This document shows, piece after piece, positions 42,763-51,630 of a DNA stretch of 64,000 nt (positions are counted from its first letter, which is position 1; each line of letters starts with the position of its first letter). The translations under genes were made by a program, and so were the position numbers. This stretch comes from a bacterium (GTDB taxonomy: Bacteria > Vulcanimicrobiota > Vulcanimicrobiia > Vulcanimicrobiales > SCRA01): contig SCRI01000025.1 of the NCBI GenBank assembly GCA_004298675.1, positions 1 through 64,000 of the forward strand. Reading direction: 5' to 3'. Under the pieces are notes generated by a model. That model ran no database searches. It had not been told where the DNA came from and was given only the letters and a program-made list of their open reading frames with translations.

Positions 42763-43428
42763 ATGCATCGCACAGAGGCACTTCCGCCGCCGATCGACCC
42801 AGCCTGGCAGGCGTGGGTCACGGAGTGCTGCGACCCCTACGCTTGGCGCAAGCTCCACGCCGCGGTTGCCGGCATGGCCGCGACCCCACCGACGCTGGCT
42901 GACGTGCTCTCATGGCAAGACAGCGGCATCGTGCCGCCGGCCGATCAGGCCTGGGCGTTGGGCGAGGTCCTCTTCGATGCGGGCATCGCCTGCGCCAGTG
43001 GTCTCGCCGCACTATGGTTCGCCGGCCGCCTGCCGGCGATCGTCTGCATCATGGCATCGCGCGGCGGCCGCTGGCCCCAGATCCTTCACGCGCTGGCCTT
43101 GGCAACGGCACCGCGCGCAGTCGTCGATTCACAACCCGGCGGCCTCGCGCTCGTTCCCAGCCCCTATCGCGAGATCGTCACGCTCACCGGCACCGAACGC
43201 GCCACGTTGCGCGAGCTTTGGCGCACGTGGGGTGGACGGCCCCGCCTTCCGGCACCGACCTCCGGATACTATCGCGGCCTGCACGAGATCGTCGCCGACG
43301 TCGACGCACCTCCGGCGGAGCGCCGGCGCCTGCTCGATGCGATGCTCTGCGCCGACCTCCCCAGCGGCTGGCCGCACGCGGGTCACGGCGAAAGCGAACC
43401 CGCGAATCTGCGCGCTGCCAGCGGCTAA
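42763..43428 (+). CDS. Unknown protein of 221 residues
   Basis: I do not recognise this protein. It begins at ATG 42763 (MHRTEALPPPIDPAWQAW) and is Trp- and Ala-rich with four cysteines (two of them in TECCDPYAW). No signal peptide is seen. A hydrophobic stretch around LFDAGIACASGLAALWFAGR could be a buried helix. It ends inside the last codons of narI on the other strand (four-base convergent overlap), and its start is divergent to the ECF sigma gene. The open frame extends upstream to 42610 over the sigma promoter region, but no good start lies there. Confidence 0.5.
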   Translation: MHRTEALPPPIDPAWQAWVTECCDPYAWRKLHAAVAGMAATPPTLADVLSWQDSGIVPPADQAWALGEVLFDAGIACASGLAALWFAGRLPAIVCIMASRGGRWPQILHALALATAPRAVVDSQPGGLALVPSPYREIVTLTGTERATLRELWRTWGGRPRLPAPTSGYYRGLHEIVADVDAPPAERRRLLDAMLCADLPSGWPHAGHGESEPANLRAASG

Positions 43429-44099
43429 GGGCGGGCGCCCCGGCGGTACCACATGACGACCTGGTAAGGACGCCAGAGGTAACCCAACGGCAACGACACC
43501 AGATGAACCAGGCGCGTGAACGGGAAGAGCACTACGAGCAGGAACCCACCGGCCGCGTGGAGCTTCACGAGCATTGGCAGCGGGGTCACGGACTGCAGCG
43601 ACGGCGAAAGCGTCGCCAGCGACCAGAGCCAGGCACCCGCGGTTGCCGGATACCAGAGGCCGCCAAAACGCAACGTCACCGCGATCGCGGCACCCAGCAC
43701 CACCTGCCCCAACAGAACCAGCAGCAGGACCACGTCCATCGGCGTCGTCACCGCGCGCACGCGCGGGTTCAGCAGCCGGCGCGTAAACAACGCGACCAGT
43801 CCCGCGATCGAGAGCAGACTCAAACCGACACCCAGCACCTCGAGCGGGTAGGCGCGCCCGCCTCCGAGCAGATCGATCCACGGTTGCGGTGCCAGCCACG
43901 CCAGCGTATGCGCGGCGAGGATGAAGAGGATCGCGTAGTGCCACGGCACGGAGCCCCAGAAGAGCCTCGAGCTCTCGAGAAACTGCGAGGAGAGGCTCGA
44001 GTACGAGAAGCGGGCGCCGACGAAACGGTAGATTCCGACGACGACCGCGAGAGCCACGGCAAGATAAGGGAAGACCGCAAACCAGAAGAGCTCAGACAT
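43425..44099 (-). CDS. narI: Respiratory nitrate reductase gamma subunit
   Basis: The membrane cytochrome b subunit that takes electrons from menaquinol or ubiquinol and passes them to NarH. It is 224 residues with five membrane helices. The four heme ligands are in the positions of E. coli NarI: His54 and His64 in VPWHYAILFILAAH, His181 in MLVKLHAAGG and His199 in RLVHLVS. Start ATG at 44099 gives MSELFWFAVF and overlaps narJ by eight bases; the longer frame to 44189 is inside narJ. It is the last gene of the nar operon. Confidence 0.96.
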   Translation of the reverse strand: MSELFWFAVFPYLAVALAVVVGIYRFVGARFSYSSLSSQFLESSRLFWGSVPWHYAILFILAAHTLAWLAPQPWIDLLGGGRAYPLEVLGVGLSLLSIAGLVALFTRRLLNPRVRAVTTPMDVVLLLVLLGQVVLGAAIAVTLRFGGLWYPATAGAWLWSLATLSPSLQSVTPLPMLVKLHAAGGFLLVVLFPFTRLVHLVSLPLGYLWRPYQVVMWYRRGARP

Positions 44100-44628
44100 C
44101 GCGTGTCCCTCCCACGGGAACGGCGGCGAACAGCGCCTCCAGCGTGGCACCAAGCGCGCGCAGCAGCGCGCCATAGGGGTTGCCACCATCGAGCGCGGCG
44201 ATCATCGTGCGCAGCGCCGGCGCGATCAGGTCGATGGCGATCTCCCGGGCCAATTCGTCATCCTCACAGACGGCGGCGAAGCGCACGATCGCGGAGAGAT
44301 GATCCGGCAGATCCCATTCCGGCAACGTAAAGGCTTGCGCCGCATAGGTCTGGCGCAGCATCGACATGAGCGCGCCGCGCTTGAAGCTTTCACCGAAGAG
44401 ATGGTAGCCGACGTACGGACAGCAGACGGGGCTGAGATCGAACGTCGTCGTGTACCGCTCCTGGACGCGCGCGAGCGGTTCGCCGCCAAGCGCATTCACC
44501 GCCCCTTCCACGTCCGGCTCCGGGCCGAACGTGGAGGACAGCCGCCGCACGCGCTCCTGCAGATCCGCGCCCGGATACTCCAAGAGATCGGCGAAACAGG
44601 CGAGACGCGCACGCTGCTCTACACTCAT
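44092..44628 (-). CDS. narJ: Nitrate reductase delta (assembly chaperone) subunit
   Basis: A TorD/NarJ-like chaperone that holds NarG until the molybdenum cofactor and Fe-S cluster are inserted; not part of the final enzyme. The 178-residue protein has the family pattern LADLLEYPGADLQERV, YTTTFDLSPVCCPYVGYHLFG and FKRGALMSMLRQTY, ending in a helical bundle. It overlaps narH and narI by four and eight bases. Confidence 0.94.
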   Translation of the reverse strand: MSVEQRARLACFADLLEYPGADLQERVRRLSSTFGPEPDVEGAVNALGGEPLARVQERYTTTFDLSPVCCPYVGYHLFGESFKRGALMSMLRQTYAAQAFTLPEWDLPDHLSAIVRFAAVCEDDELAREIAIDLIAPALRTMIAALDGGNPYGALLRALGATLEALFAAVPVGGTRDV

Positions 44629-46118
44629 GCTCCCCGTTTCGGCCTGGCACGGAAGCCAAAGCCGGTCTCGCCTTTCTGCGAGAGCGGATCGTTCCAGAGT
44701 TCCTCGATCGCGGCATCCCGTTGATAAGGCGGGATGACGAATCGCTCGTCGTACGTGGGCAGCGACGTGAGTTTGAAGATTCCGTCGGCCTCATCCGGAG
44801 TCAGGCCGACCTCGGCCAGCATCGACCCCGCCTTCTCCTTGCTGATATCGCCCACACTGACGGAGCGGCGGTGCGCGCGAACGGCGATCAACCGCCGCAG
44901 CACGTAACTGACCGGCGCGATGTCGCCCGCCGAGAAGAGGTTGGCCATGAACTGGAGCGGTACGCGCGCTTTGTCGATCGTGCCGAAGAACTCGGTCTCC
45001 TCGATGTCATACGAGCCCTTCTTCATCGAAGCCATGACCGGCGAGAGCGGCGGAATATAGAACAGCATCGGCAGCGTCCGGAACTCCGGATGCAGCGGGA
45101 GAGCGAGATGCCAGCGCTTGACGAACTTGTAGACGGGGGAACGCTGAGCCGCGTCGATCCACTCGTCGCTGATGCCGTTCTTCTTCGCCGCAGCGATGAC
45201 GGCGGGATCGAAGGGATCGAGAATCATCTCGCGCTGCGCCTCGACCAGGCGTTGCTCATCCACCTTGGCGGTCTCCTCGATGCGGTCCGCGTCGTACAGG
45301 ACTACGCCTAGGTAGCGGATGCGCCCCACACACGAGTGGAAGCACGCCGGCGCCTGACCCGTCTCCAGGCGCGGGAAGCAGAGCACACACTTCTCCGATT
45401 TGCCGGTCGACCAGTTGTAGTAGACCTTTTTATAGGGGCAGCCGGAGATGCACATGCGCCAGCCGCGGCATTTCTCTTGGCTGACCAGCACGATGCCGTC
45501 CTCGCCGCGCTTGTAGATCGCCCCCATGGGGCAGGCGGCGGAACAGCCGGGATTGGCACAGTGGTTGCAGATGCGCGGGAGATAGAAGAATACCATGCGC
45601 TCCAGGTCTGTGAGCTGGCGGCGCTCTTCTTCATCCAGGCCCTTCAGGTTGGGATCGTTGGCGGCGTAGACCGGCGAGCCACCGAGATCGTCGTCCCAGT
45701 TCGGGCCGGCCTCGATGTCCATGTACTCGCCGCTGACCATCGAGACGGGGCGCGCCGTGGGCTGATCGTCGCCCTCGGGCGCATCGAAGAGATCCTGATA
45801 CTTGTAGGTCCAGGGCTCGTAGTAGTCGTCGAGCTGAGGCAGACGCGGATTGTAGAAGATGTTGCCGAGCGCGCCGCCTTTGCGCTGCAGCTTCAGGCGC
45901 AGCTCGTTGCCGTCGACCATCCAGCCGCCGCGGTACTTCTCCTGATCCTCCCAATGCGTGGGGTAGCCCGTTCCGGGCTTCGTCTCCACGTTGTTCCACC
46001 ACATGTACTCGGCGCCCTTACGATCCGTCCATACATTCTTGCAGGCGACGGTGCAGGTGTGGCATCCGATGCACTTGTCCAGATGGAACACCATGGAGAT
46101 CTGGCGGCGAATGTCCAT
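44625..46118 (-). CDS. narH: Respiratory nitrate reductase beta subunit
   Basis: Electron-transfer subunit with three [4Fe-4S] and one [3Fe-4S] cluster between NarI and NarG. The 497-residue protein begins DIRRQISMVFHLDKCIGCHT with Cys16, Cys19, Cys22 and Cys26. The second set is CNHCANPGCSAACP, the third CRGWRMCISGCPYKK, where the Trp instead of Cys marks the [3Fe-4S] site, and the fourth follows at CVLCFPRLETGQAPACFHSC. A frame extending to 47021 runs into narG out of phase and is not real. ATG 46118 lies after GGGGGAG. It starts 11 bases after narG ends. Confidence 0.97.
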   Translation of the reverse strand: MDIRRQISMVFHLDKCIGCHTCTVACKNVWTDRKGAEYMWWNNVETKPGTGYPTHWEDQEKYRGGWMVDGNELRLKLQRKGGALGNIFYNPRLPQLDDYYEPWTYKYQDLFDAPEGDDQPTARPVSMVSGEYMDIEAGPNWDDDLGGSPVYAANDPNLKGLDEEERRQLTDLERMVFFYLPRICNHCANPGCSAACPMGAIYKRGEDGIVLVSQEKCRGWRMCISGCPYKKVYYNWSTGKSEKCVLCFPRLETGQAPACFHSCVGRIRYLGVVLYDADRIEETAKVDEQRLVEAQREMILDPFDPAVIAAAKKNGISDEWIDAAQRSPVYKFVKRWHLALPLHPEFRTLPMLFYIPPLSPVMASMKKGSYDIEETEFFGTIDKARVPLQFMANLFSAGDIAPVSYVLRRLIAVRAHRRSVSVGDISKEKAGSMLAEVGLTPDEADGIFKLTSLPTYDERFVIPPYQRDAAIEELWNDPLSQKGETGFGFRARPKRGA

Positions 46119-46129
46119 CGTGACTCCCC

Positions 46130-49743
<3,614 letters not shown>

Positions 49744-49747
<4 letters not shown>

Positions 49748-50244
49748 CGAGTGCTCCTACTCACGAGGGCACGCCGCACGCCGGTCAGACGCTTGCGCCA
49801 GATGACCGCCATTGCGACGAGCGCGACGATCGCAAAGAGCAGGCCCAGCAGCGGAAAGCGCGCCGCGTCCCGCTGCGGCGCCGCGCTCGCGACGGCGCCC
49901 AGATACGCGATGACGTCGGCTCGCTCCGCCGCCGTGAGCGGATGCCGCGCGAAGACCGGCTGCATCGACGGAAAAGCGATCGTCGCCAAAACCGGCTCCA
50001 GATTCTTCGCGCCGCCGTAACGCGTGAATACCGTCGTCAGATCGGGGCCATACGTTCCGCCGGCCGCCCCCGCGCTATGGCATGCGATGCACGGCGTGCC
50101 TCCGTTCTGCATGCGAACCGCGCCGCTGAACAACCGCGCCCCCAACGCCGCATCTCCGCCCGCAGGCGCCTGCGCCGACACGAGCCCCGGCACGGCGATC
50201 GCCAGGAACAGCAGGACCAACATCCATCCCACGCGTGCTGCCAT
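49744..50244 (-). CDS. Monoheme cytochrome c, NarC-like, first gene of the nar operon
   Basis: A cytochrome c of about 166 residues with an N-terminal signal/anchor helix ([18 protein letters not shown]), one heme motif CIACH near residues 52-56, and a second hydrophobic helix near 132-152 ([20 protein letters not shown]). Heme attachment is outside. The axial Met may be the one in SMQP about 40 residues after the heme. It overlaps narG by four bases. In Thermus a cytochrome c (NarC) precedes narGHJI, receives electrons and anchors the complex; here a similar role is inferred. The start is ATG 50244, or GTG 50250. Confidence 0.88.
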
Positions 50245-50250
50245 GGCCAC

Positions 50251-50287
50251 ACCCTAGCCCGCCGCGGTTCCACCCCGGTTCCACCCG
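50251..50287 (-). promoter_or_regulatory. nar promoter with two 11-base direct repeats
   Basis: GGTTCCACCC occurs at 50266-50275 and again at 50277-50286, an 11-base period (GGGTGGAACC read on the minus strand). A possible -10 box TAGGGT lies at 50256-50251, nine bases downstream of the repeats, and six bases before ATG 50244. Direct repeats with 11-base period just upstream of the -10 box are the type bound by SARP/BTAD regulators. Confidence 0.5.
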
Positions 50288-50339
50288 CCCCCGTGGCGAT
50301 CACGCGAGCATCGCGTGCGCAGTCGCAACGTCAGCGGCG

Positions 50340-50476
50340 GGGCGAGCGACGTCGCCCCTGAGGGGGCTCTGAGGCGCGCGCGGAGCCATGGATGGCGAGA
50401 GCGCGCGCGAAGGCAGTAGGAGCGGTGCAGGATCGCACCGCGACGCGCGGCCCCTCAGGGGCGATGTCGCTCGCCC
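50340..50476. repeat. REPIN-like inverted pair of 26-base palindromic units
   Basis: The 26 bases 50340-50365 and 50451-50476 are inverted copies with one mismatch, separated by 85 bases. Each unit is itself palindromic: GGGGCGA pairs with TCGCCCC, and CCCC pairs with GGGG around TGA. Inside the spacer GCGGTGC/GCACCGC (near 50422-50441) forms another hairpin. Two REP-like units facing each other are the design of a REPIN. It also can end transcripts of the regulator gene. Confidence 0.5.
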
Positions 50477-50502
50477 AGACGCGGGCAAGCGCGCACAGGA
50501 GC

Positions 50503-51630
50503 CTAGGCGCGCATGGCGTGGTAGAGGGCTTGGGTTTCCTCGAGCGGGAGGACGCCCAGTTCTTCGTGCAGAGCGCGGGCGCACATCTGGTACTGGCGCA
50601 ACGCATCGGCGCGGCGGCCGTGGCGCCAGAGGAGCGCCATGAGATCGCGGTGGACGTCCTCGAGACACGGGTCGACTTCGAGAGTGCGGCGGTAGGCGGC
50701 AACGGCAGCCTCGACCTCCCCGCCGTCGTCATGGAGGCGTGCGGCCCGGCGCAGCACAGTCATGTACGTCTGACGAAGCTCGCTCCGGCGCTCTCGGCAC
50801 CAGTCGCTATACGGCTCGTCCTCGAGATAGTCGCCAACGTAGAGCTGTGCCGCGGCTTCGAAGGCGGCAAGGGCTGGTTCCCGGCAGCCCAGACGCTCCT
50901 GGCGCACGCCCTCATTGGAGGCGGCGAGGAACTCCTTGGCATCCAGACGGTGGGGCGACGCAACGTCAAAGGCGTAGCCCTCGCCCTCGGTCATGACAAA
51001 CGCGGCACGCGAGCCGCCGGCAGCCCCGAGGCCGCGGCGCAAGTAGTGGACCGCCACTTTCAGCATCGTGACGGCGTCCTTAGGTGGCAGTTCCGGCCAG
51101 AGCATCTCCACGAGCTCGTCACGGGCGACGATCCGGCCATAGTTGGTGAGCAGGATCTTCAGCACCGTCAACGGACGCCGGCGCACGAAGCCGCCGGCAG
51201 GCAGGACGGCGCCGCCGCGCGTCGCCGTGAAGGTGCCCAGACAACGCAGATCGAGGGTCGTGGCGACGGTGCGGCGCTGCTCCAAGAGGATCAAGACGTT
51301 GCCCGAGGCCTCATCGGGGCGCATCGCAACCCCTGCGGAGAGGTGCAGCGGCCGTCCTTGACTGTCGCTGGCGACCAGCCCGCTTGGCCGCGCGGCGCCA
51401 GCCGCAGCATCGTTCAGGCTGCGTTTGATCGGGCAGCGCGCCCCGCTGCAGAGCGGCCGCCCGTCGGCATCCCGGCAGACGACGATCTCGTAGCAGCGGT
51501 GCCGTAGCGCCTCGCGAGAACTCCGGCCGAAGAGCCTACCGGCGGCCGCACTCCAGCCGACGATGCGCCAGCGGCCGTCGATGAGAACGCTCGCGGTACC
51601 GGCGCCAAGCGGCGCCCCCGAATCTTCCAT
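50503..51630 (-). CDS. PAS, winged-helix and BTAD (SARP-like) transcriptional activator
   Basis: A 375-residue regulator. Residues about 10-118 are a PAS domain (DGRWRIVGWSAAAGRLFGRS) with four cysteines at 46, 52, 61 and 66 (RHRCYEIVVCRDADGRPLCSGARCPI) that could bind a Fe-S cluster or form disulfides. About 127-215 is an OmpR-type winged helix (LRCLGTFTATRGG, RRRPLTVLKILLTNYGRIVARDELVEMLWPE), and about 225-372 is a bacterial transcriptional activator domain. It lies directly upstream of the nar operon and downstream of nuoN, so it is the natural candidate for nar control. Confidence 0.85.
   Translation of the reverse strand: MEDSGAPLGAGTASVLIDGRWRIVGWSAAAGRLFGRSSREALRHRCYEIVVCRDADGRPLCSGARCPIKRSLNDAAAGAARPSGLVASDSQGRPLHLSAGVAMRPDEASGNVLILLEQRRTVATTLDLRCLGTFTATRGGAVLPAGGFVRRRPLTVLKILLTNYGRIVARDELVEMLWPELPPKDAVTMLKVAVHYLRRGLGAAGGSRAAFVMTEGEGYAFDVASPHRLDAKEFLAASNEGVRQERLGCREPALAAFEAAAQLYVGDYLEDEPYSDWCRERRSELRQTYMTVLRRAARLHDDGGEVEAAVAAYRRTLEVDPCLEDVHRDLMALLWRHGRRADALRQYQMCARALHEELGVLPLEETQALYHAMRA

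Follow-up and report, generated by a model that had tools for sequence, protein, structure and literature searches.

The nar locus and its regulator gene

The window, by which we mean the whole stretch of 64,000 nucleotides analysed here, comes from a genome of 3.03 Mb (87 contigs, 98.5% complete) whose nearest named relatives are Candidatus Eremiobacterota MAGs. On its minus strand the window carries, in order, nuo genes, a regulator gene, a gap of 250 bases, a gene for a narC-like cytochrome c, and narG, narH, narJ and narI, as Table 1 shows. The gene upstream of nar had been described in the original prediction as encoding PAS, a winged helix and BTAD, and Pfam indeed finds all three, with E values of 2e-9 for Trans_reg_C, 1.6e-25 to 6e-25 for BTAD and a weak 0.01 for PAS. 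Within the window, no regulator gene other than the BTAD one was recognised directly beside the nar operon. Two Crp-family genes are present elsewhere in the genome, on contigs C74 and C68, with none on C8.

Table 1. Coordinates of the genes, domains and predicted control elements
Feature	Position	Strand	Basis or remark
Regulator gene, 375 aa, Cys-PAS + winged helix + BTAD	50503..51630	-	Pfam; AfsR/EmbR match (sequence and fold); tree
PAS-like sensor region, residues 10-112	51295..51603	-	weak Pfam PAS; similarity to PAS-LuxR proteins; Cys columns
Winged helix DNA-binding domain, recognition-helix stretch LKVAVHYLRRGL	50968..51255	-	Pfam Trans_reg_C; model; helix comparison
BTAD domain, residues 229-374	50509..50946	-	Pfam BTAD
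MITE-like insertion, 149 bp, 32-bp terminal inverted repeats	50334..50482	.	separates regulator and operator; outside the predicted switch
Upstream predicted operator repeat GGAACC	50277..50282	-	-38 to -33 if the start is the narC ATG
Downstream predicted operator repeat GGAACC	50266..50271	-	-27 to -22 if the start is the narC ATG
Candidate -10 element TAGGGT	50251..50256	-	nine bases from repeat; TANNNT equally spaced in 6/6 genomes
narC-like cytochrome c	49744..50244	-	Pfam Cytochrom_C
narG, nitrate reductase alpha subunit	46130..49747	-	TIGR01580, 1547 bits
narH, beta subunit	44625..46127	-	67-84% identity to counterpart gene in relatives
narJ, assembly chaperone	44092..44628	-	Pfam Nitrate_red_del
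narI, gamma subunit	43425..44189	-	Pfam Nitrate_red_gam 6e-58
Second full predicted operator site, G013	L105 4982-4998	+	ahead of cytochrome oxidase operon
Second full predicted operator site, G130	L106 7172-7188	-	ahead of cytochrome oxidase operon

An OmpR-like winged helix followed by BTAD is the output plan of the SARP (AfsR/SARP) regulators, and Pfam and PDB matches reveal the same plan in the window regulator. EmbR is the top PDB sequence match of the output half (1.3e-12), AfsR is also matched by sequence, and the AlphaFold model of the regulator superimposes on the SARP domain of AfsR in the transcription initiation complex (8k60/8hvr) with a target-normalised TM score of 0.80. Approximately 120 residues of PAS-like sequence precede the DNA-binding domain, so the latter is not N-terminal, unlike that of the SARPs.

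The gap between the regulator and narC is long largely because of a MITE-like element. About seven copies of this element, 95-98% identical, are present in the genome, and several are incomplete or located at the ends of contigs. The corresponding gap in the relative G102 is about 60 bases. Despite the insertion, the candidate operator described below is intact.

A candidate operator at the narC promoter

The sequence GGTTCCACCC occurs twice in the gap, at 50266-50275 and 50277-50286, with a period of 11 and nine bases from TAGGGT, which reproduces the positions and the spacing that had been proposed for a pair of 11-base repeats before a -10 box. The nar-coding strand reads GGAACC-GGGGT-GGAACC-GCGGCGGGC-TAGGGT-GTGGCC-ATG directly ahead of narC-narGHJI, a spacing that can be summarised as GGAACC-N5-GGAACC-N9-TAGGGT-N6-ATG. 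The narC ATG, at 50244, is located six bases past the -10 element, with equal spacing in G102, and a GTG at 50250 is an alternative start. Judging from this sequence, the narC mRNA is probably leaderless, with transcription starting at the ATG. The two-repeat core, GGTTCC-N5-GGTTCC, has a single occurrence in the 3.03-Mb genome, at the nar promoter; an 11-bp repeat matched at 7 or more of 8 positions and followed by a -10 would be expected ∼0.005 times in the intergenic stretch, and the full 32-bp pattern about 0.003 times per genome.

At published SARP sites, direct repeats recur at intervals of 11 or 22 bp, and 8 bp separate the 3' repeat from the -10 element. In the case of AfsR the box spans -40 to -19, and the contacts fall on the initial 8 bp of every 11-bp repeat (PMC10936776, PMC4393881). 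As a sequence pattern the window promoter fits this rule, with a period of 11 and 8-9 bp to the -10. Counted from the narC ATG as the start, the last bases of the hexamers are -33 and -22, which are also the ends of the contacted 8-bp stretches of the afs box.

Conservation of the candidate operator in the phylum

We searched 149 genomes of the phylum for the pattern GGAACC-N5-GGAACC-N9-TANNNT. NarC homologues are found in 6 of the 149, and the same six carry, at the nar locus, a close homologue of the regulator with 52-63% identity over the output half. The full operator pattern occurs in exactly these six genomes with both the regulator orthologue and narC, at the nar locus in 6/6, and is absent from the other 143 of 149; the reversed pattern gives two matches in all 149. 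A random coincidence of the operator with the regulator and narC would have a probability of 7e-11 for independent genomes, a figure that ignores phylogeny. The genomes are not independent, but nar-less genomes of the same genera provide controls, and in these congeners the pattern was not found, even with one mismatch allowed. A similar frequency of the pattern in nar-less genomes was looked for as a test of chance and was not seen, and absence of the repeats from relatives that keep the regulator, the outcome named earlier as counting against the prediction, did not occur. A DNA alignment, from which the G130_cox row (wrong strand) was left out, shows that the genera have the repeats, the -10 and the spacing in common but vary in the intervening bases.

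NarG is found additionally in G140, where the regulator next to it is more distantly related, and in G049, where it is a fragment. In the regulator-narC gap of G140, TAAAGT is preceded by an 11-bp repeat of another sequence, ATGTAAG-N4-ATGTAAG. Within the recognition helix, HYLRRGL is common to the five comparable orthologues with a GGAACC operator, and other family members differ. Taken together, the different repeat in G140 and the restriction of HYLRRGL to the GGAACC orthologues suggest a constant geometry in which the base sequence varies along with the protein that reads it.

In each of the genomes G013 and G130, a cytochrome oxidase operon is preceded by a second full site (the operon of G130 has a COX2-COX1 fusion), and NarK-type transporter genes have bare repeats ahead of them. 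The regulator therefore probably runs a small respiratory regulon in these two species, and the position of the second sites suggests that it may also control the terminal oxidase there. In the window genome, the nar site is the only operator site found. Bare GGAACC repeats were also seen at three further places in G098 and in G007 and G140; since these are within or close to coding sequence and no promoter is recognisable there, we took them as chance.

Relationship to DnrS and to the SARPs

The nearest characterised relative of the regulator is DnrS of Thermus, not a Streptomyces SARP. In Thermus, dnrST lies beside narCGHJI in the conjugative nitrate respiration element (PMC5748679, PMC7694296, PMC6282519), and Thermus plasmids in PLSDB (loci L034 and L035) confirm the regulator-narC layout. 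DnrS contains GAF and BTAD; nar transcription depends on it, and it is sensitive to oxygen (PMC5748679, PMC7694296). Its oxygen-dependent conformation and the requirement for nar are established in Thermus only, and the authors ascribe the oxygen sensitivity to GAF (PMC7694296). It has been described since 2007 as an oxygen-responsive master regulator of nitrate respiration, in vitro work having failed (PMC5748679, PMC7694296), and these papers establish no operator, DNA binding or sensing centre for it (PMC5748679, PMC7694296, PMC6282519). In the literature, Thermus DnrS is the only case of SARP/BTAD in nitrate regulation that we found, and a 2021 review of nitrate-respiration control leaves SARP, BTAD and DnrS all unmentioned. 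The connection of the window regulator to nitrate respiration, proposed earlier without naming DnrS, is thus backed by this precedent as well as by the strict co-occurrence.

DnrS of Thermus thermophilus is similar to the window protein in that it adjoins narC-narGHJI (in the window, its relatives, L034 and L035) and has a winged helix and BTAD output; its N-terminal Cys motif is CAHLVQGKDPFGRPLCARCP, compared with CYEIVVCRDADGRPLCSGARCP in the window protein. DnrS differs in its length of 601 aa, in its GAF and a second Cys-bearing segment, in the co-encoded Crp-type DnrT and in being divergent from nar. The window protein, in contrast, has no GAF and a clear candidate operator, and a search of the genome for Crp matches found no DnrT partner beside it. 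At the Thermus, Deinococcus and Chloroflexi loci, we found no convincing 11-bp repeat ahead of a -10, and the operator is therefore not general to the family.

AfsR, ActII-ORF4, DnrI and OtcR likewise combine a winged helix with BTAD and use period-11 direct repeats 8 bp from the -10, and by fold match the window output half resembles AfsR. The SARPs differ, however, in being actinobacterial, in controlling antibiotic clusters and in having an N-terminal DNA-binding domain without PAS. EmbR of Mycobacterium tuberculosis also has a winged helix and BTAD, but carries a C-terminal FHA (PMC10936776) where the window protein has an N-terminal PAS, and has other targets.

The best tree, built without long branches, unites the window clade with DnrS and other PAS/GAF-BTAD proteins at moderate support (91/86 and 90/88, the 91/86 of the DnrS clade not being starred), and the actinobacterial SARPs are a separate clade (100/100). 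A window clade joined with Thermus/Deinococcus alone is not rejected (p-AU 0.16), and forcing the window clade together with the actinobacterial SARPs gives a p-AU of 0.07, though the best tree separates them. The description of the protein as a SARP-like regulator therefore holds for its output, on the grounds of repeat conservation, spacing and fold, but the phylogeny does not clearly make it a SARP, the best tree grouping it with DnrS-like proteins. The comparisons strongly support the predicted operator and give good support to a SARP-like mode of action, in a regulator whose family affinity is DnrS-like.

The sensor end of the regulator

The four Cys residues noted earlier in the PAS domain are all present in the sequence (minus strand; Cys46 at 51493-51495, Cys52 at 51475-51477, Cys61 at 51448-51450 and Cys66 at 51433-51435). 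Cys46 and Cys66 are aligned in 10/10 and Cys61 in 9/10 Cys-PAS sequences, a set of five BTAD and five PAS-LuxR proteins that is biased because the PAS-LuxR members were found by similarity to the window PAS; Cys52 is unique to the window protein. Conservation of the Cys set, as anticipated in the original prediction, is therefore seen in part: Cys46, Cys61 and Cys66 fit a motif common to Cys-PAS proteins, DnrS among them, but Cys52 falls outside it. PAS is absent altogether from the closest full-length orthologues, in G126 and G013, which contain GAF instead, and the G130 orthologue, whose assembly has a run of N, starts with GAF too. The G102 and G098 regulators are cut by contig ends, which places their N-termini outside the comparison. 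In the window protein, Pfam finds no GAF. The operator has thus stayed and the sensor differs, and on these domain assignments the operator is conserved while the sensor domain appears to have been exchanged. With the nearest full-length orthologues lacking PAS, sensing by Cys-PAS cannot be general.

The PAS region is modelled at low confidence with both full and domain alignments, and a fold search with the PAS part gave no significant match, the best weak ones all being PAS folds. The PAS-LuxR proteins of related genomes (L110-L114) show C-x14-C-x3-C, and most of them have another Cys four or five residues further along. In Thermus DnrS (L034:7662-9467), residues 33-52 are CAHLVQGKDPFGRPLCARCP, ahead of GAF; the accessible parts of the DnrS papers do not mention this stretch, which is a possible sensing centre.

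By analogy with DnrS, and in view of the target genes, the Cys-PAS may respond to oxygen or redox. NreB of Staphylococcus, a Cys-bearing PAS oxygen sensor tied to nitrate respiration, can be likened to the window protein by description, though it is a histidine kinase and its Cys spacing is different. The alternative, to which we give slightly short of an even chance, is that the Cys-PAS serves as a zinc or thiol site, senses nitric oxide or is a structural relic; the protein may then be constitutively active or answer to some other signal. Consistent with that alternative, only Cys46, Cys61 and Cys66 are conserved, and the motif is not specific to nar, since it also occurs in PAS-LuxR proteins from genomes that lack this nar operon; on the other side, DnrS has the same Cys motif and is reported to be oxygen-sensitive, though the authors credit GAF (PMC7694296). 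The question bears on the sensing part alone, and either answer is compatible with the operator. The window protein is a minimal version of the system, and since a single Cys-PAS replaces the GAF part, it can be used to separate the candidate sensing sites.

Proposed mechanism and its significance

With the domain content, the fold match of the output half, the co-occurrence and the fixed spacing as described above, we infer direct binding, activation and the start site as follows. The regulator is quite probably a DnrS-like activator with a SARP-type output that binds the GGAACC pair, recruits RNA polymerase and turns on leaderless narC-narGHJI. Two regulator molecules would occupy the 11-bp-spaced repeats on one face of the DNA, where they would stand in for a -35 element and recruit RNA polymerase to the adjoining -10 box, switching on a probably leaderless narC-narGHJI mRNA. 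The N-terminal Cys-PAS (Cys46/61/66), in place of the GAF of the relatives, might gate the activator by oxygen or redox, a step that we hold less firmly than the rest.

It is unlikely that the repeats instead serve a different nar-associated regulator and that the BTAD protein acts elsewhere. Any nar-linked factor would co-occur with the operator in the same way, and the two Crp-family genes lie elsewhere in the genome. However, Crp/FNR proteins recognise inverted sites and not direct repeats of 11 bp such as those in the window; the spacing is typical of SARP-type proteins, HYLRRGL is common to the five orthologues with the same operator, and the BTAD gene is the only regulator gene recognised directly beside the operon in the window. 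An origin of the repeats by chance or from a mobile repeat element has next to no probability, since the MITE-like element in the same intergenic region is a separate sequence that starts about 50 bp upstream of them, and the pattern is confined to the six nar genomes at the low expectation given above.

The activator model provides a predicted operator for an oxygen-responsive regulator group that has lacked a found site, and one that is testable with proteins from non-thermophiles. It would also carry activation in the SARP mode beyond antibiotic production and into the respiration of an uncultured phylum. More tentatively, and as a possibility that we would not yet call probable, a separate and little-described SARP-type branch of anaerobic control, distinct from FNR and NarL, may run nitrate respiration and in some species also the terminal oxidase and nitrate transporters, with exchangeable sensors and a fixed operator, and the Cys-PAS, which is also in DnrS and apparently unnoticed there, may be the actual oxygen or redox sensor.

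Several loci outside the window are also of note. On the Deinococcus plasmids L033, L037, L038 and L039, a DnrS-clade GAF-BTAD regulator lies beside a cluster of a molybdopterin/4Fe-4S/Rieske reductase and a nitrate transporter. A Chloroflexi MAG (L028 3509-8783) encodes a regulator with Cys-PAS, GAF, winged helix and BTAD beside ctaB and cytochrome oxidase genes. Finally, four GGTTCC/GGTTAC units with an 11-bp period are located upstream of a NarK-type transporter (L027 3205-3255), in the orientation opposite to that of the nar site.
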